Origin: a virus
DNA: 47,934 nucleotides
Virus record (IMG/VR): IMGVR_UViG_3300033153_006421
Coordinates: 1 to 47,934 of that record
Reading direction: 5' to 3' (one strand)
Shown here: one piece after another, positions 13,391 through 35,224 of the stretch
Numbering within the stretch: position 1 is the stretch's first letter
Layout of the letters: each line of letters begins with the position of its first letter
Position numbers and translations under genes: made by a program
The notes under the pieces: generated by a model
Databases searched by the model: none
What the model was told of the DNA's origin: nothing
What the model saw: only the letters and a program-made list of their open reading frames with translations

Positions 13391-14456
13391 CCGCCCGAAT
13401 GAACGTCGCTGCCACCTCTGCGTTGATCGCGTTGCCGTAGCCCTTCAGCCGCCCGACGCGATTACTTCTTGCACGACGAGCCATGCCTGAAAGCCAGGGC
13501 TCGCCTCGTCCCACTCCTCGGGCAATCCCATGAGCCAGCGGGGAAGTGCCGGGTTCAACTGGCCTTGCCCTCCCGTCTGCACAGGGGATCCATTCGCAGT
13601 CGCACCAGAAGCCAGGCTGACCACCTGTTCCTGCAACGGCCGGCCCTCGTTCTTGATCTGCCTGTCGAGCGTCTTGCTGTTCTGGTTCTTGCCCGACCCG
13701 TGACCGTCGCTCTTGGTCGGAGTCGCCCACCCCGCCATCCTCGAGGCGTCCACCAAAGTCACTCCCGCGTGGTGCTTGCTGTCCGGGTTGTGTCGTGTCG
13801 CCGTGGCGTTGGCGGCGTTGGCGGCGTCCTGTTTCGTTGGCGTGGGCCAACCCGCCAGAACTGACACTGCCGCCAAGTCCGGCCCGTGTTTCCGGGCACA
13901 TTCGATGATCGCCCCCTTCTCCGACCTGACACCTTTGGTTGCGAGCGCCTTGGTTGGTGTGGGCCACGAAGAACAGCCGCTGCCGGAGGTGCGGTGCGCC
14001 GACGCTACAAGCCGGCAGAGACGCCGCCCCGACGGCATATCCCACGCCTTCCAGGTCATTCGATACAAGGTCGAACCACGTCCGGCCAGCTCGGCTCGCA
14101 ACCTGCTCTCCAAAGATGACTGGAGGACGGCACTCGCGAATGAGCCGGAACCACTCGGGCCAGAGGTGGCGAGGATCCTCGAAGCCTCCACCACTACCGG
14201 CGGCAGAAAACGGCTGGCACGGACAGGAGCCGGTCCACACTTCTCGGTCATCGGGCCACCCAGCGAGCCTGAGCGCGTGGGACCAGACGCCGATCCCGGC
14301 GAAGAAGTGGGCTTGGGGGGCGTCAACAAGGTCTGCTGGCTGGACATCGGCGATGCTCCTTGGGTCGATACGGCCAGGCGTAATGTGGTCGGCGTCTACC
14401 AGGTTGTTGAGCCACTCGACGGCGAAGGGTTCGATCTCGTTGTAGTAGGCGCTCAC
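13353..14456 (-). CDS. DNA (cytosine-5) methyltransferase
   Basis: A 367-residue C5 methyltransferase. Motif I is FAGIG (about 52-56), motif IV PCQPFS with catalytic C80, motif VI a variant FGEQV (E117; ENV in most enzymes), motif VIII QRLFFVA (about 159-165), motif X GYGNAIN near the end. The region 170-310 is the Gly/Arg/Gln-rich target-recognition part. The GTG at 14456 is chosen because VSAYYNEIEPFAVEWL is the usual N-terminus of this phage subfamily and because it overlaps the preceding TGA (GTGA). No restriction partner is present, so it likely modifies phage DNA against host restriction. A second long frame overlaps it. Confidence 0.92.
   Translation of the reverse strand: MSAYYNEIEPFAVEWLNNLVDADHITPGRIDPRSIADVQPADLVDAPQAHFFAGIGVWSHALRLAGWPDDREVWTGSCPCQPFSAAGSGGGFEDPRHLWPEWFRLIRECRPPVIFGEQVASRAGRTWFDLVSNDLEGVGYAVGAASLPACSVGAPHLRQRLFFVAHTNQGARNQRCQVGEGGDHRMCPETRAGLGGSVSSGGLAHANETGRRQRRQRHGDTTQPGQQAPRGSDFGGRLEDGGVGDSDQERRSRVGQEPEQQDARQADQERGPAVAGTGGQPGFWCDCEWIPCADGRARPVEPGTSPLAHGIARGVGRGEPWLSGMARRARSNRVGRLKGYGNAINAEVAATFIRAAMTEPSTTQSDP
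13445..14347 (-). CDS. overlapping-frame ORF within the methyltransferase gene (WPTP-repeat family), translation unproven
   Basis: A 300-codon frame lies entirely inside the methyltransferase gene in another frame. It reads as a recurrent phage protein type: MSSQQTLLTPPKPTSSPGSA at the start, then LQSSLESRLRAELAGRGSTL, YRMTWKAWDMPSG, repeated WPTPTK/WATPTK units, and a terminal LNPALPRWLMGLPEEWDEA. Similar chains are commonly annotated in phages. They might be truly dual-coded, or only a shadow of the conserved methyltransferase frame. No clear ribosome-binding site precedes the ATG. Confidence 0.35.
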   Translation of the reverse strand: MSSQQTLLTPPKPTSSPGSASGPTRSGSLGGPMTEKCGPAPVRASRFLPPVVVEASRILATSGPSGSGSFASAVLQSSLESRLRAELAGRGSTLYRMTWKAWDMPSGRRLCRLVASAHRTSGSGCSSWPTPTKALATKGVRSEKGAIIECARKHGPDLAAVSVLAGWPTPTKQDAANAANATATRHNPDSKHHAGVTLVDASRMAGWATPTKSDGHGSGKNQNSKTLDRQIKNEGRPLQEQVVSLASGATANGSPVQTGGQGQLNPALPRWLMGLPEEWDEASPGFQAWLVVQEVIASGG

Positions 14457-19537: not shown

Positions 19538-19710
19538 GGCTTCACCCCGAACTCGATCTCGAGCGCATCGACGCCGCGCTCCACCGCCATGCGCATCACC
19601 GCGGTGAGTGAGATGCGGTGGGACGGCAAGGCCGCGGTCACCGCGGGGACCAGGCGCTCCAAGCGGGCGCGCAGCTTGGGGGCCAAGCGGAGGGGGATCG
19701 GGTGGCTCAT
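19534..19710 (-). CDS. ribbon-helix-helix regulator
   Basis: A 58-residue protein: a beta strand IPLRLAPKLRARLERLV followed by two helices including ISLTAVMRMAVERGVDAL, the Arc/MetJ ribbon-helix-helix plan. Such dimers bind short palindromes. It is the best candidate in the window for the protein recognising the palindromes near 27.3, 32 and 35 kb, but this link is only a guess. The ATG at 19710 overlaps the resolvase stop and follows GGAG. Confidence 0.6.
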   Translation of the reverse strand: MSHPIPLRLAPKLRARLERLVPAVTAALPSHRISLTAVMRMAVERGVDALEIEFGVKP

Positions 19711-20195
19711 CGTTGTCGGCTCCATCGGACTGCTCCATGCTCTCTGAGGTAGTGGGCGCCGATGCCGATGGCATCCCACCCGTCGTGTGTGGTACGCGGG
19801 GCTACCCGCTGAAGCTCGTCTGTGGTGAGGATCTCTCTGAGGTAGTCGTGCTCGACGTCTTTGGGCCGGCTGCCCTTCCACTGGCTCGGCTTGTACCCGA
19901 CGCCAGGACAGGGGAGCATGCCCAGCACATAGCCTCCGACGCCCTGCAGCTGGAGCATGGCATCGAGCTTCGCCCCTGTGGTCCTGCGGTCGCGCTGCAT
20001 CTCCTCGATGACAGCCACGTCCACAGGGGCGAAGGGGTCCAGAGCCAGGCCGACCTGCCGCGCTGCGCGGTGCCAAGCCGGCGGGCCTGTGTCGGTACCG
20101 GGGCTGCGGACCGTGCAGGCATGGACCAGCGCGTCGTGGTGGAAAACGGCTAAACCGAGTTTGCGCAGGCCGGGGTCGATAGCGACGAGGATCAT
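19707..20195 (-). CDS. RuvC-like Holliday-junction resolvase
   Basis: A 162-residue RNase H-fold nuclease. MILVAIDPGLRKLGLAVF supplies D7, VAVIEEM supplies the Glu at about 64-65, and THDGWDAIGIGAH supplies D138 and D141: the four acidic residues of RuvC with the same order and spacing. QWKGSRPKD (about 105-113) fits the RuvC loop before the last motif. Likely resolves branched replicating phage DNA before packaging. Coupled on both sides by ATGA overlaps. Confidence 0.85.
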   Translation of the reverse strand: MILVAIDPGLRKLGLAVFHHDALVHACTVRSPGTDTGPPAWHRAARQVGLALDPFAPVDVAVIEEMQRDRRTTGAKLDAMLQLQGVGGYVLGMLPCPGVGYKPSQWKGSRPKDVEHDYLREILTTDELQRVAPRTTHDGWDAIGIGAHYLREHGAVRWSRQR

Positions 20196-27352: not shown

Positions 27353-29365
27353 CTACGTGGTGCCTGGCCTCGGCTTGCGCCAGAGCCGCTCGCGCTTGCC
27401 GCCGATACTCTCCTGCCTCACCCGCTCGCAGCCCAAGCGCCGTAGTGCCTCGGACACCCCCGTGCTGTGGCGGCGGATGTCGCTGCGTGGTACCCGCAGC
27501 GCGCCGATGATGGCAGCGCTCAAGCCGAAGGTTGGCTGGGGGTAGTCGCGCAGCCACCGGAGCAGCATCGCGTCATTCGTATCCTCGGCGCGGAACTCGT
27601 CGTTGCTGATCTCGCGCTCGACATCCAGGGCGTCGTCAAGATGCCACGGCTCCTTGGCCTTGAAGCGGTGAGCCGCCTCAGCCCACAGCTGGTCACGGAG
27701 CGCCTCCACCCAGTCGGTATCGATCCGCTCCTCGTTGACCCGCACCGCCCAGAAACGACGGTCGCCGGTCGGGTCAGTCAGCGGGTACTCGTCGTTGGAC
27801 GAGCCTACCAGGATGCTGTGCCGGGGGTACTCCTCGACGGTGCGTCCGTAGGGCGGGCGGTAGGCATCGGTGCGCCGGGTGATAAAGGCTTTGGCCCGGT
27901 TGCGATCGGCGCGGGCGAAGCTGTTCATCTCGCCGACCTCGAACCCCCACGTGGTCGCGAGCTGCATCGCAGCGGCGACGGGGTTGGACAGGTCGAGCTC
28001 CTCGTCGAGGAACCAGCGGTCAGAGAAGAGCGCGCGGTACATGCTCGACTTGCGGGTGCCTTGCTTGCCGACGAGCAGCAGGACCGTGTCGACCTGGCAG
28101 CCCGGGGTCAGCGCGCGGGCCACGGCGGCGATGGCGGTCTTTGCGCCGTACGCCCTATGCAGCGGGGTGTCGGGAATGCCGGCGGCGCGTATCAGCCAGC
28201 CGTCCAGCCGGGGCTGGCGGTCCCACTCGAGGTCAGCGAGGTACTCCTGGACCTGGTTCGTGGGGTTCTCGTGGGCGACCATGGTTGTAGCCTCGGCCGC
28301 GTGTGTCGCGAAGGGCTCGAACCCGTAGGTGTCGTGTATGGCGATGCGCAGGGCCAGGAGGTCGTGGTCTTTGATGGGCTTCCCGCCGAGGGTGATCTGG
28401 CGCAGGAACTCATCGTACCGGAGCCTCCCGGCGTAGCGGCTGTCGCGGCGCAAGGCGCGCGTTGTGTTGGTCAGGTTCGTCTTGGGTGTGCCGCTCTGCG
28501 TGAGCGCGAAGGCCAGGGCGGGGTTGTCGGTCCAGCTGGTCTTGCAGGTGGAGCAGCTCACGAAGGCCCGGCCGTCGCTGCGCCGACCTATGAAGGCGCT
28601 GGGCGTGCCGTCGTCGTGGAAGGGACAGCAGATGCTGAGCTTGTCCTCGACGGTCTCCGCCAGCTCGGCCAGCGTGATGCCGTAGTCAGGCAGGTTGATC
28701 TCGGCGAAGTCGCAGAGCTTGCGCATCTGGATGCGGCTGGCCGCGTTGCGCATCGGTGCGGGGATGTCAATGCCCGCCGCCCACGCCTCGAGGGCCGTGC
28801 GATCTGTGCGGGTGTGGGTGCGTATGACCGTCTGGTAGCGGCTGCCGTGATGCGCGCCGCCCACCCGCATGCGGCGGGAGGGGTTGATCGCGGTGGCGTC
28901 GCCTTCGATAGCGTGGCACACCGCGGCCATCACGTTGCGCCACTGCGCCTCCTCGGCCATGGTCCAGGGGTTGGCCTGGAGCCGCCAGAAACAATGGATG
29001 GACCGGCCGGGGCTGGCGCCTTGGGGGCGGTCGTCGCCGGACAGGACCACCGCGGTGGGGGCCGGCATGCCGTGGGCGATGGCCCGGTCGAGGCGCTCGA
29101 GCTGCTCGGGGATGGTGCCGTGGTCGGCCTCGGCCCACACGGCGGGGAGGTCGAGCACGGCTTGGCGACCGATGCCCTTGCCGCTGGCTGGCATCTCTAC
29201 GTCAGGCCGGATGCGGGCGGGCGTCCAGTAGAGCCCGTCCTTTTGATGCCAGGTGCCTTCGGCGTCCCTGGTGCTGATAGTGCCGCACCAGTGTACGTCT
29301 TCGGGGTCACTGAGGAGACGATCAAACTGGGCAGAGGTGACCGCGCCGAACTGCATCATTGTCAT
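27353..29365 (-). CDS. primase-helicase (AEP-like N-terminus, VirE-type SF3-like ATPase)
   Basis: A 670-residue protein. Residues about 60-200 resemble a primase-polymerase (SIHCFWRL with H124; CHAIEGDATAINPSRRMRVGG). A zinc site follows (CCPFH 246-250; CSTC 271-274). The C-terminal helicase has Walker A G433KQGTRKSS (Arg where Gly is usual), Walker B WGFEVGEM (E476/E479), and GSSNDEYPLTDPTGDRRFW with sensor N524 and Arg finger R536/R537. It should prime and unwind the phage origin. ATG at 29365 follows AGGAG; the frame is open upstream without a site. Confidence 0.85.
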   Translation of the reverse strand: MTMMQFGAVTSAQFDRLLSDPEDVHWCGTISTRDAEGTWHQKDGLYWTPARIRPDVEMPASGKGIGRQAVLDLPAVWAEADHGTIPEQLERLDRAIAHGMPAPTAVVLSGDDRPQGASPGRSIHCFWRLQANPWTMAEEAQWRNVMAAVCHAIEGDATAINPSRRMRVGGAHHGSRYQTVIRTHTRTDRTALEAWAAGIDIPAPMRNAASRIQMRKLCDFAEINLPDYGITLAELAETVEDKLSICCPFHDDGTPSAFIGRRSDGRAFVSCSTCKTSWTDNPALAFALTQSGTPKTNLTNTTRALRRDSRYAGRLRYDEFLRQITLGGKPIKDHDLLALRIAIHDTYGFEPFATHAAEATTMVAHENPTNQVQEYLADLEWDRQPRLDGWLIRAAGIPDTPLHRAYGAKTAIAAVARALTPGCQVDTVLLLVGKQGTRKSSMYRALFSDRWFLDEELDLSNPVAAAMQLATTWGFEVGEMNSFARADRNRAKAFITRRTDAYRPPYGRTVEEYPRHSILVGSSNDEYPLTDPTGDRRFWAVRVNEERIDTDWVEALRDQLWAEAAHRFKAKEPWHLDDALDVEREISNDEFRAEDTNDAMLLRWLRDYPQPTFGLSAAIIGALRVPRSDIRRHSTGVSEALRRLGCERVRQESIGGKRERLWRKPRPGTT

Positions 29366-29397
29366 GTGGTGGCTCCTGGTGTGTGGCGAGGTGATGC

Positions 29398-29414
29398 CGG
29401 GGGAGCTACCCCCG
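29398..29414 (-). promoter_or_regulatory. GC hairpin upstream of the primase-helicase gene
   Basis: CGGGGG and CCCCCG pair around AGCTA at 29398-29414, in the 128-nt gap before the primase-helicase gene. No U-run is present. It may insulate or protect the downstream message. The same gap holds an 18-codon ATGA-coupled frame (29441-29497), too weak to call as a gene. Confidence 0.4.
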
Positions 29415-29493
29415 ACGCTCACCACATGAGCATAGACAGCCTACTCCCTGGGCGGGCCGGGAGCAACCTGCTGGGCATAGCGCCGGGCGGTCC

Positions 29494-30389: not shown

Positions 30390-30761
30390 CACACGGGCGA
30401 GGTCAAGGCGGTCGGCGTCGTCTGCCGTGCCTTGTGCCCACATGCGGAGAAGGTAGGGGAGCTTGCCGGGCTTGCGGATGAGGTACCCCTTGTCGTCCCA
30501 GCCGGCGAGGCATGCGAAGCGCAGCGCGTACCCGAAGCCCTGCGGGTCGTCGAGGTCAACGCGGAGCATGTGCTCTGACACGAGCCCGTCTGAGCTGCCA
30601 TCGTGGACGCTCCACTCTCCCGCGCTTGCGTGGAGACAGACAGCCTTGAAGCTCCTGCCAGGATGGGTGTCGTGGACAACGATCACCACCACTCCGCGAG
30701 CAAGCGGAATCGCCGGCATGATGTCCAGCCAGGTTTCGGTTTCGGCGTCGGGGCGGGTCAC
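30369..30761 (-). CDS. hypothetical protein flanked by direct repeats
   Basis: A 130-residue mixed alpha/beta protein with GTG start (VTRPDAETETWLD) and end LIEVTS. Both its start and stop junctions lie in copies of the same 32-bp repeat, so it may have entered as a cassette. No family recognised. Confidence 0.6.
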   Translation of the reverse strand: MTRPDAETETWLDIMPAIPLARGVVVIVVHDTHPGRSFKAVCLHASAGEWSVHDGSSDGLVSEHMLRVDLDDPQGFGYALRFACLAGWDDKGYLIRKPGKLPYLLRMWAQGTADDADRLDLARVLIEVTS

Positions 30762-30778
30762 GAGGTCACCTCGATGAG
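30747..30778. repeat. 32-bp direct repeat, copy 2, at a stop/start junction
   Basis: Second identical copy, 389 nt from the first, at the junction between the 30758 and 30369 genes, again encoding LIEVTS / VTRPD. The two copies bracket one gene. Confidence 0.85.
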
Positions 30779-31348
30779 GGTCAGGTAGACGGTGGCCTGG
30801 CGGCGCATACCGTCGGGGCGGGTCACGTCCATCACGGCGCGCAGCGTGACGCCGTTGTGGGTGAGGAGGACCGGCGTGGCCTTGTGCTGGTGGGCATACA
30901 GCTGGCGCATGACGCGGGCTTGTCTCTTGATCAGGGTGAGGGGCTGTCGCTTGGCCTTGGCCTGGGCCGCGGCGAGCTTGGCGGGGTAGGCGGCTTGGGC
31001 AGCGAGCAGCCGGGCGAGGGCCTTGTCACGGGCGAGGGTAGCGCGGGTCAGGGTGGCTGTGTGTCTGTCGCGGGCCTTGTCGGTGGTGGCCCCGTCGATG
31101 CGGCCCAGGGCGTTGTTGATGCGCGTGGCGATCTTGTCGAGGGCCAGGGCGCGGGAGGCGTCGTCGTCGCGGCGAGCGAGGCGGACCTCATTGAGGGCCA
31201 CGTCCACCGCGTGCTCGCTGTCAAGGGTCAGCTGGGTGTAGCCGAAGCTCACCACGGTGTCGGGGGTCCAGCTGATTGCGCGGAGGGCTGCGACGAGGGC
31301 GCCGGCCGTGGTCCAGCCGGGCTCGAGGAGGGTGGTGGGGGTGCTCAT
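30758..31348 (-). CDS. hypothetical helical protein, first gene after the control region
   Basis: A 196-residue, mostly helical protein rich in Ala, Arg and Lys (LDKIATRINNALGRI; TATLTRATLARDKALARLLA). No catalytic motif. It follows the leader GGAGATCACC-ATG shared by other early genes and is the first gene transcribed leftward from the repeat region, so it should be expressed early. Possibly DNA-binding from its basic helices, but unproven. Confidence 0.6.
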   Translation of the reverse strand: MSTPTTLLEPGWTTAGALVAALRAISWTPDTVVSFGYTQLTLDSEHAVDVALNEVRLARRDDDASRALALDKIATRINNALGRIDGATTDKARDRHTATLTRATLARDKALARLLAAQAAYPAKLAAAQAKAKRQPLTLIKRQARVMRQLYAHQHKATPVLLTHNGVTLRAVMDVTRPDGMRRQATVYLTLIEVTS

Positions 31349-32450
31349 GGTGATCTCCGAGGGGTGAGGGGCTACTCACGTCGTCAGTGTATAGCGCTCG
31401 TATACAAGGGGCAAGTCTTTATTTCTGCCCATGGTCGCTTATTTCAGCCCAGGGTCAGCTAAATCGAAAGCGTCGTGGGCCAGAGGATCACAGAGATATA
31501 GTGATTGCTGCATATCAGCGATATCCCCCGGCGAACCCGGCATATCATCTCCGCCCATGGTCAGTGAGACGCCGTAATGCAGGTTGAACCTGGGTTTCTT
31601 CTTATATGCCTACTCATGGTCTTAAATACAAAAAGGTAGGTACAACCTGTCTTATTAACCATATACATGTACTACTCATGGTAATTACACTGACTTGTAG
31701 GGCTGTGGTAGTATCGCATACTGAGGGGTCAGACCCGAGGGGGTAGGGGAGGTAAAGTCGGTGTTCTGACCCTGGGCGGAGCCGACAAATAGGCTAATAG
31801 TATAGGTTGTTCCTGGCTTATTGCCTATCTGGACCATGAGTAGCAGATAGTGAGAAGGCAGGTTGAACCTGGCTTATCGCGTCTCATGGTCCCGCCCATG
31901 GTCGGCTGACCCTGGGCGCGGATAAGGGCTGTTTTGGGCGATAAGCCTGGTCGCACCTGACAAATGCGTCGATTTGCAGATAGCCTATCTGATCAGCAAA
32001 TAGCTTAAATCGGAGGGTGCGGTCGAGCAGATAGGCTATCTGGGTAGGGGCGCTGCTTATCTGCAGGGAGGCGAGGCGATAGGGGACCGGGCTGGTCGGG
32101 TATCAGGGAGCGGGCGGGAGGGGGCGAGATCAAATAGCAGAGGCGGGGGTGCAAATAGGCTGACCTCCCCGAGTTATGTTAACTATTGCCCTTGCGTGCA
32201 GTGGGAGCGGGGGTGGAAGTGGACAGAAACTGTCCGGAACCACCCGGTCGTCCTCCCCAAGCGTGTTCAGTGTTGCAATGTGCAACATCGCCGAGCCACA
32301 TGACAAATGTGTCGCCGTTGAATAGCAGCAGCTATACAAATAGAGCCGCCGCTTGGCGCCTCGAGATGAAAGCGCCGCCCAACGGTGGGACAAATAGCGG
32401 CGACAACGGAGGAGCCGCCCACTATTTGCCCACCGTTGGGCGGCTATCTC
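31349..32450. promoter_or_regulatory. 1.1-kb non-coding control region with short repeats (possible origin)
   Basis: No convincing gene. It holds seven copies of CATGGT(C) (31427-31903), two exact CAGGTTGAACCTG palindromes (31580, 31859) plus two degenerate copies (31637, 31803), all followed by CTTAT, three TGACCCTGGGC copies, two 15-bp palindromes CAGATAG-N-CTATCTG (31977-31991, 32028-32042), six CAAATAG and one CTATTTG (31786-32428), and dyads GGACAG/CTGTCC at 32221 and TGTTGCA/TGCAACA at 32271. It is locally AT-richer than the genes. This combination fits a replication origin with iterons or a multi-operator control region. Confidence 0.65.
32374..32444. repeat. 23-bp near-perfect inverted repeat
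   Basis: The arm 32374-32397 is the reverse complement of 32422-32444 apart from one extra base, with a 24-nt loop. Each arm carries GCCGCCCAACGGTGGG and a CAAATAG motif. It begins 6 nt after the stop of the 32451 gene. It could end that transcript or form a cruciform at an origin. Confidence 0.85.
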
Positions 32451-33140
32451 TCAGGCGGTGATCAGCCGGGGGCCGTTGTCCGTGTCGACGGGCCAGCCAT
32501 AGGCCGCGTGGACGATGGCACAGAGCGCCGCGAAGTGCTGCCCGGAGAAGCTGTACCCGCCACCATCGATCCCGGCCAGGCGGTGCTCACGATAGGTGGC
32601 TACGGTGAAGCCGGCTGCCTGCAGCTGTTCGTCGGTGATACGATCGTCGGGCATGTATGCCCAGTTGTTGGCCCAGGGGTAGCCGTGCGGCTCGAAGCGT
32701 TCGTGGTCGAGCTGTCGGGCCACGTCTTCGGCTTCGTGCTCTTCGGTCCAGTAGTCGGTCACGTCGTCAGGCATGACGCCGTCCGCCCAAGGGCTGTAGT
32801 TCTGAGCCTCTGCGAAGCGTTCGTCGGTATTGGTGTCGACGATGATGTAGCGCTGCGCTGCTTCCTCGCAGCGCACGGCGTTATCTTCGTCATCCTTGCA
32901 GCAGACGGTAGGCTCATCCCACTCGGTGCCGCACTCGACGCAGACCCACACACCGGGCGACGTGATCTTGAACCGCTGATCCGGCGTGACTTCCCACTCT
33001 TCGGGGTTGTCCGTGTTCAGGAGATCCATCGGCAGGCCCGGCATGTAGTCGGCCATGAAGCGCGAGACGAACCGTTCAAAGGTGCGATCGGCGAAATTGC
33101 AGGCGTCAGGAACGAGGTCAGTGAGCTTGACGGTGGACAT
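32451..33140 (-). CDS. hypothetical early protein with GIDGGGY motif
   Basis: A 229-residue acidic protein starting MSTVKLTDLVPDACNFADRT. It has a CVECGTEWDEPTVCC metal-site-like segment (about 77-91) and the C-terminal motif GIDGGGYSFSGQHFAALC. The ATG at 33140 follows the shared leader CGGAGATCACC; the longer upstream frame has no site and foreign composition. A related LDGGGYAF motif occurs in the 34.0-34.8 kb gene. Function unknown. Confidence 0.6.
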   Translation of the reverse strand: MSTVKLTDLVPDACNFADRTFERFVSRFMADYMPGLPMDLLNTDNPEEWEVTPDQRFKITSPGVWVCVECGTEWDEPTVCCKDDEDNAVRCEEAAQRYIIVDTNTDERFAEAQNYSPWADGVMPDDVTDYWTEEHEAEDVARQLDHERFEPHGYPWANNWAYMPDDRITDEQLQAAGFTVATYREHRLAGIDGGGYSFSGQHFAALCAIVHAAYGWPVDTDNGPRLITA

Positions 33141-33228
33141 GGTGATCTCCGCTGGGTTCGACGCAAGAGCGCGTCCTATAGCCACAATATCCGCTGATAG
33201 TGTAGCTATCGGCTGGGCTCTGGCGGTA

Positions 33229-33720
33229 TCAGACGGGCCAAGCAGGCGCCCTGCCCGGATCGCCCGCAAGTGGGGGTTCGTGGCACACGGGGCACCCCAA
33301 ACGGCTGAGGATCGGAGGCTGGGCTGCGCCCCAGTAGGATCCGAACCAATCACATGGGCGATCCGAGTCGTCGACGTGTTCCGTATCGTCGCTACCGCTG
33401 CCCCAATACGCGAGCCAACCCGTAGCGGCGCGGATGATCTGGTCTGCCAGATCCCCACGGCCTGCTGCCCACTCGTCGACGTCGTCTCTTCCGCCGCTGA
33501 AAGCGTCGACGATCAGCGGGTCGGGGGTGAAGTCGAGATGGACGGCGCCGGGCTCGAGAAGCTCAGCCACGGTCACGGTTGCCCGTTGGATGTGCGGCGA
33601 GAAGGATCCGTTTTCGTCGGGCTCGCTCGCTTCGCCCCACTGTGCGATCATGACCTCGTCACCGCTGAGGTAGACGGACAGTCCGTGATCGGGGCCATGC
33701 GCATTGATGAGACAGGTCAT
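33229..33720 (-). CDS. hypothetical early protein
   Basis: A 163-residue acidic protein with a beta-rich N-terminus (MTCLINAHGPDHGLSVYLSG) and C-terminal CPVCHEPPL. ATGA overlap with the upstream gene. No family recognised. The 88-nt gap after it carries the dyad GATAG-TGTAG-CTATC (33196-33210). Confidence 0.6.
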   Translation of the reverse strand: MTCLINAHGPDHGLSVYLSGDEVMIAQWGEASEPDENGSFSPHIQRATVTVAELLEPGAVHLDFTPDPLIVDAFSGGRDDVDEWAAGRGDLADQIIRAATGWLAYWGSGSDDTEHVDDSDRPCDWFGSYWGAAQPPILSRLGCPVCHEPPLAGDPGRAPAWPV

Positions 33721-34799: not shown

Positions 34800-35224
34800 G
34801 GTGGGCTCCGTTGTTTGGTATACATACCTTATCCGGGCCTTCTCTTATCCGCCACCCCCTATTTGCAAATAAGGGCCTTCTCTTTTCGCCTATCTGTAGA
34901 TAGTGACCCTTCTCCCGCCGCGCAGCTGGGGCCTTATCCGTGGCTTACCCTCTCAAGGGGCTGGGCTGGCGCGGGTGTGGGGCCTCTCCCGGGGGCCAGG
35001 TGGGGTCCTCGAGTAGCGGGGCGGCGTGGGGCATCCCGCCTTTGACCCCCACCCTTTCCCCCTTCCTACGTGCCCCCGAGGTTTTCACCAAATTTCGCCC
35101 CTCACTATTTACAAATAGCCCACCCCCGCTAAGCCCCCGCTACACGGCCACCATAGCCCTATCCCCCTCACTATTTACAAATAGCAAGCCCCCGCTAAAT
35201 AGCAAGCCCCCCCAGCGGTCCGGC
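34800..35224. promoter_or_regulatory. 425-nt non-coding region with operator-like palindromes
   Basis: No gene seen. It contains TATTTGCAAATA (34860-34871), CTATCTGTAGATAG (34890-34903) and two CTATTTACAAATAG palindromes (35105-35118, 35171-35184) inside a direct repeat starting CCCCTCA, plus three TTATCCG words at 34829-34938. The palindromes share the CAAATAG half-site of the 31.4-32.4 kb region. It holds the promoter for the 34799 gene and the 3' side of the exonuclease gene. Confidence 0.65.

Follow-up and report, generated by a model that had tools for sequence, protein, structure and literature searches.

The question raised by the uncultivated tailed phage in IMG/VR record IMGVR_UViG_3300033153_006421 (47,934 nucleotides, hereafter the window) is where its DNA replication starts, and whether a noncoding gap of about 1.1 kb at 31349-32450, crowded with short repeats, is the site. 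An original prediction, made from the sequence alone, had described a cluster of interleaved repeat families at 31427-32042 as a possible iteron origin or complex control region. We consider it likely that this gap is the replication origin of the phage, of the iteron type and of the pri-rep-ori kind found in phage-inducible chromosomal islands (PICI) and Staphylococcus aureus pathogenicity islands (SaPI). Support comes from a layout shared with relatives, from a superfamily 3 (SF3) primase-helicase gene close to the core in 13 of 20 loci measured, and from the co-variation of the iterons with the C-terminus of that helicase.

Repeats and AT-rich core of the gap

Gene calls based on open reading frames (ORFs) and on GC content at third codon positions left the gap without convincing genes, so that, as originally predicted, no gene explains the repeats, and only small ORFs such as 32130-32393 (87 aa) are possible within it. 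The main repeat is the 9-bp motif CYCAKGGTC, counted in both orientations, and nine of its ten exact copies in the window fall inside the gap (Table 1), compared with at most five in shuffled sequences, with opposite orientation across an AT-rich core. The 100 bp of lowest GC content in the record (34%, the overlapping segments from 31591 and 31601, in a record of about 66% GC) fall across this core, and the least stable 60-, 100- and 150-bp segments of the record all lie within 31575-31725, amid the repeats. The 800-bp segment with the most repeated 8-mers of the whole record is 31401-32200 (98 vs a median of 29), and the best 9-mer of the gap, with one mismatch allowed, occurs nine times, compared with a maximum of six in 60 shuffles.

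All repeat families of the original prediction are present where it had placed them, with some changes in how they are counted. There are seven CATGGT copies, of which only six are CATGGTC, the one at 31677 being CATGGTA. The three TGACCCTGGGC copies (31767 and 31907 on the plus strand, 31447 on the minus strand) were found as described; they and CATGGTC, listed as two families, are a single motif, CYCAKGGTC, on two strands. Two perfect CAGGTTGAACCTG palindromes (31580 and 31859) and two degenerate ones (31637 and 31803) were likewise recovered, and CTTAT does follow all four, at a spacing of 1 nt in three and 8 nt in the fourth. The CAGATAG-N-CTATCTG pair at 31977 and 32028 is indeed 51 bp apart. 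The cluster itself is real and longer than proposed: it stretches on to about 32430 through CARATAG, which has 13 of its 21 copies in the record inside the gap (whole-record shuffles gave a mean of 3.36 and a largest value of 8).

Table 1. Coordinates of features in and around the proposed origin of the window.
Feature	Position	Strand	Remarks
VapE-like SF3 primase-helicase, proposed initiator	27353..29425	-	PF05272, E 4.6e-69
Noncoding gap, proposed origin	31349..32450	.	between leftward genes 32451-33458 and 30758-31348, upstream of leftward replication operon
Iteron CYCAKGGTC copy 1	31428..31436	+	
Iteron CYCAKGGTC copy 2	31448..31456	+	
Iteron CYCAKGGTC copy 3	31554..31562	+	
Large imperfect inverted repeat, left arm	31565..31660	+	73% identical, E 3e-7
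Palindrome P copy 1	31573..31599	.	CAGGTTGAACCTG core 31580-31592
AT-rich core, likely melting element	31599..31700	.	least stable 100 bp of record; z 6.4
Iteron CYCAKGGTC copy 4	31613..31621	+	last exact copy left of core centre
Degenerate palindrome TAGGTACAACCTG	31637..31649	.	
Degenerate iteron CTCATGGTA	31675..31683	+	sequence
Iteron CYCAKGGTC copy 5	31768..31776	-	first right of core, opposite orientation
Large imperfect inverted repeat, right arm	31792..31886	-	73% identical, E 3e-7
Degenerate palindrome TAGGTTGTTCCTG	31803..31815	.	
Iteron CYCAKGGTC copy 6	31832..31840	-	
Palindrome P copy 2	31852..31878	.	CAGGTTGAACCTG core 31859-31871, outer arm CTTATC
Iteron CYCAKGGTC copy 7	31883..31891	+	
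Iteron CYCAKGGTC copy 8	31895..31903	+	
Iteron CYCAKGGTC copy 9	31908..31916	-	
Palindrome CAGATAGCCTATCTG	31977..31991	.	
Palindrome CAGATAGGCTATCTG	32028..32042	.	

Conservation of the layout in related phages

Searches of viral contigs with exact patterns of single proteins (VapE, terminase and major capsid) confirmed no close relative, no DNA similarity was found in named phages, and Rfam gave no match at gathering score. The pattern CAGGTTGAACCTGNCTTAT, with 18 fixed bases, matched four of the 2.9 million viral contigs, and all four encode relatives of the terminase (34%) and the portal protein (32-35%, partial in two), one of them also a capsid relative. Two of these contigs are identical over 5,266 bp, and the four were treated as one phage, R. 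Terminase alignment with R gave 58 loci, from which 14 were excluded (11 with less than 1.4 kb upstream of the terminase gene, two R duplicates, and L166 with a weak 22% match); the remaining 44 and the window make 45 sequences, or 36 groups after merging of terminase genes at 90% DNA identity. Layout was counted in the 31 groups, window included, whose sequence extends at least 3.5 kb beyond the terminase gene on its upstream side. A set of 80 loci collected as DNA polymerase relatives was too distant for comparison and was kept out of the counts; some of these, such as G012 and G005, show repeat-rich gaps and others do not. A noncoding gap in G005 (L093:18723-19211) holds a nested palindrome of about 490 bp, with 87-nt outer and 46-nt central arms around the same centre.

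In 26 of the 31 loci, the 100 bp of lowest stability are found no more than 9 kb upstream of the terminase gene; the 700 bp around this core exceed all 50 shuffles in repeats in 26/31, and both hold in 25/31. As a control, 90 next-best AT minima of these loci were put to the repeat test, and 13 passed it. The distance between core and terminase match is 4335-4579 bp in ten loci and 5280 bp in the window. An iteron-like 9-bp motif flanks the core on both sides in 19 of 34 sites (at least two copies above any of 12 shuffles; the 34 include the three hand-picked sites L167, L179 and L106), and in 17 of these 19 the nearest copies are oppositely oriented across the core, although several loci are close kin and hence not independent. 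The motif itself varies by group: AGGTTACA was found in eight loci and TTTCTACCG in two, and CTTGACAGC, TTTGTAGTT, AGCCACAAA, ACTACGCTA, AGGTCGGTC and others in single loci. In G056, the nearest relative by gene content (aligned parts of the major head protein 75%, portal 54%, polymerase 47% and VapE 36% identical), CTGCCAAGCAC and GTGCTTGGCAG flank a 107-bp AT core, one on each side; the core chosen automatically for this phage (L147:8819) fell on the terminase side, with the iteron array elsewhere, and was rejected. The original prediction had named a lack of repeat conservation in related phages as evidence against it; on this point the relatives did not refute it. A separate arrangement is seen in L146:3062-3442, where GAGGTCGGTA direct repeats with an exact 10-bp period form three blocks around an AT core.

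Link between iterons and the SF3 helicase

By its PF05272 match and its structural model, the proposed initiator belongs with the primase-helicases of the SaPI Rep or PriRep kind. The model is confident only for residues 283-669, the N-terminal part (residues 1-282) being modelled too poorly for a primase fold to be judged. The best structural match is to the staphylococcal PriRep1 with double-stranded DNA (7pds; Z 32.8, rmsd 6.6, 385 residues aligned), followed by NrS-1 and the SaPI5 primase-helicase (7ola) with Z 13-15, and residues 577-662 look like a winged helix by the order of helices and strands in the model. Among the 31 records, SF3 domains were found as PF19263 in 22 and as PF05272 in seven. 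The distance from core to SF3 gene could be measured in 20 of 24 loci, the gene lying outside the examined stretch in the other four, and in 13 of the 20 the gene starts 495-725 bp beyond the core and points away from it. The VapE gene of G056 begins 295 bp away from the AT core, in L138 and L110 the SF3 gene start is at the contig edge, and in L130 the frame is broken by a stop.

Iteron and helicase sequences were compared at 16 sites where the core was available and an SF3 gene lay no more than 2.3 kb away, leaving out L130. Iteron similarity correlates with the identity of the whole SF3 protein (r 0.83), of its C-terminal 160 residues (0.87) and of the terminase (0.82). With the terminase removed, approximate partial Mantel tests gave r 0.36 for the whole SF3 protein and 0.55 for the C-terminal 160 residues (both p about 0.0005), compared with 0.22 (p 0.054) for the terminase with SF3 removed. 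The partial correlation of the C-terminus beyond the terminase points to the C-terminal domain of the helicase, which we propose as the putative iteron reader. The SaPI Rep protein is stated to read its iterons via its C-terminal domain in a passage of an earlier study (PMC7581432).

Together these observations suggest a mechanism in which the VapE-like primase-helicase would bind the CYCAKGGTC iterons with its C-terminal domain, in groups of opposite orientation to the left and right of the AT-rich core; it would then melt the core, load itself there and initiate replication. A family-A polymerase and a second helicase of the phage, both encoded downstream in the same operon, would take part. 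The paired palindromes overlap the core but form an element apart, which another regulator probably binds.

A conserved palindrome within the gap

The perfect CAGGTTGAACCTG copies are located one in each arm of an imperfect inverted repeat of about 96 bp. The full form of this palindrome, here called P, is about 27 bp and reads about GATAAGCCAGGTTNAACCTGGCTTATC, and hence the CTTAT of the original prediction is the outer arm of P. It is conserved in distant relatives, with two copies each in the window, R, G056 and L150 and one in L129, and when the 2.81 Mb of loci were searched with a profile of these copies, the only further matches were to L111 (E 8.6e-4), to L121 and L173, which overlap (0.05), and to L156 (0.1); each is located in a gap on the upstream side of the terminase. 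An alignment of about 50 bp joins the two window arms to the two R copies, and three of the four have CTACYCATGRTC after the palindrome. In R, the palindrome is part of a 187-bp element present twice (L106:1052-1233 and L109:12418-12599, 70% identical, E 5e-20), in the same orientation, once upstream of the SF3 gene and once upstream of the packaging operon. The core of R also carries TATAGGGA; a search for T7-like RNA polymerase (PF00940) in seven records gave no match, and was uninformative as the control genomes gave none either.

Weighing the origin reading

Several observations count against the gap as an origin or weaken the case for it. Cumulative GC skew, a check suggested with the original prediction, gave no origin signal at the repeats: it peaks near 34 kb, among the leftward genes and away from the repeats, the skew keeps its sign across the window core (+0.135 left, +0.055 right), and no consistent sign change was found at the cores of relatives. 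No DnaA box (TTATCCACA, up to one mismatch) was found in the gap, which in this respect does not resemble a DnaA-dependent origin. GC-rich coding segments reach a maximum of eight copies of their best 9-mer (mean of six), close to the nine of the gap, and raw motif counts alone were for this reason rejected as proof of an origin. The window core is 2.2 kb from the SF3 gene, with five small ORFs between, a distance also seen in L146, and L149 and L160 do not follow the SF3 spacing. The partial Mantel tests are based on 16 related sites and are only approximate. Finally, in G056 about 12 kb separate the iteron array from the palindromes, which are found towards the terminase, and neither palindrome site of R shows an excess of iterons (five vs a shuffle maximum of six).

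Because of these last two observations, P is taken as a separate conserved element, which happens to stand together with the iterons in the window, and R backs the palindrome and not the iterons. As P is conserved on its own, apart from the iterons in G056, the earlier suggestion that more than one protein binds the region also fits. Origin and operator functions may overlap in the gap. The palindrome also being upstream of the packaging operon in relatives, the whole could form a composite switch, in which an initiator-bound iteron origin is combined with P, and one phage protein, bound to the palindromes at both places, couples the start of replication to the switch to packaging-gene expression; we regard this as improbable.

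The gap could instead serve only to control transcription of the leftward early operon, with promoters in AT-rich DNA, operator arrays for at least one phage regulator and no origin, but this reading is improbable. It would explain why the gap is directly upstream of leftward genes, why the two 187-bp elements of R sit the same way round upstream of two different operons, in an operator-like manner, and why CARATAG sites recur in a second gap at 34800-35224. However, the iterons invert across one AT core in 17/19 sites and track the C-terminus of the SF3 helicase more than the terminase, and only a single weak σ70-like promoter was found (shuffles mean 0.5, sd 1.0).

That the true origin is elsewhere, for example in this second gap, and that 31349-32450 is an accessory cis element comparable to crr of satellite P4, is quite improbable. 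The second gap is also AT-rich and repeat-rich (a repeat score of 56 at 34814 vs a shuffle maximum of 28) and contains CARATAG, and R has two copies of its palindrome element, whereas the strongest AT core of the record and the inverted iteron array are in 31349-32450; by gene calls, this is also the first noncoding gap of appreciable size on going upstream from the helicase gene. That the cluster serves in packaging (pac) or partition (centromere) is very improbable: many relatives have it 2-9 kb ahead of their terminase gene, but an SF3 helicase gene lies between the two in 13 of them, and the window proteins that were scanned gave no match to a ParA or ParB family.

Other features of the window

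The gap at 34800-35224 is noncoding and contains CTATTTRCAAATAG-type palindromes, CTATCTGTAGATAG and CTTATCC copies, and at 34814 begins the 100-bp segment that ranks third in the record for low stability. Right after the stop of gene 32451-33458 there is a perfect 16-bp inverted repeat (32374-32444), with CAAATAG/CTATTTG just within the arms, which is perhaps a terminator hairpin without a T run. The protein encoded at 18189-18626 matches the Acb2/Tad1 hairpin domain with an E-value at the cut-off (5.3e-6) and is a possible counter-defence protein. Genes for a DNA methyltransferase-like protein (13445-14347) and a RuvC-like resolvase (19707-20195) have matches in several relatives.

Comparison with known origins

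Lambdoid origins of the O type have palindromic repeats next to AT-rich DNA, as in the window, but lie inside the O gene and use an initiator that is not a helicase. A PICI is a satellite that relies on a helper phage for its virion, whereas the window, a tailed phage, itself encodes terminase, portal and major head protein families along with a family-A polymerase; it is a phage with a PICI-like origin, and not a PICI. What it shares with the PICI/SaPI pri-rep-ori system is a primase-helicase as initiator, with a fold matching PriRep1 and more weakly the SaPI5 protein. It differs in that a second conserved palindrome is merged into the origin region, and in that the core is upstream of the initiator gene, while SaPI origins are placed just downstream of rep in the passage cited above (PMC7581432). 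The same passage gives a putative origin of the staphylococcal cassette chromosome mec (SCCmec) element with Cch2, which is similar in that a helicase of the D5 family binds direct repeats located in noncoding DNA next to its own gene, and dissimilar in having three 5-nt iterons; inverted arrays about an AT core are not described in that passage (PMC7581432). The kind of origin is already known from phage satellites.

True relatives that exact protein patterns had missed were retrieved with the short palindrome alone, through its 18 fixed bases. The iterons come in about eight different sequences, each located upstream of a gene for an SF3 helicase, and constitute a natural data set on how this helicase family reads origins. 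For a lineage of uncultivated tailed phages, the gap provides a concrete candidate origin, and links the origins of phages to those of phage satellites.
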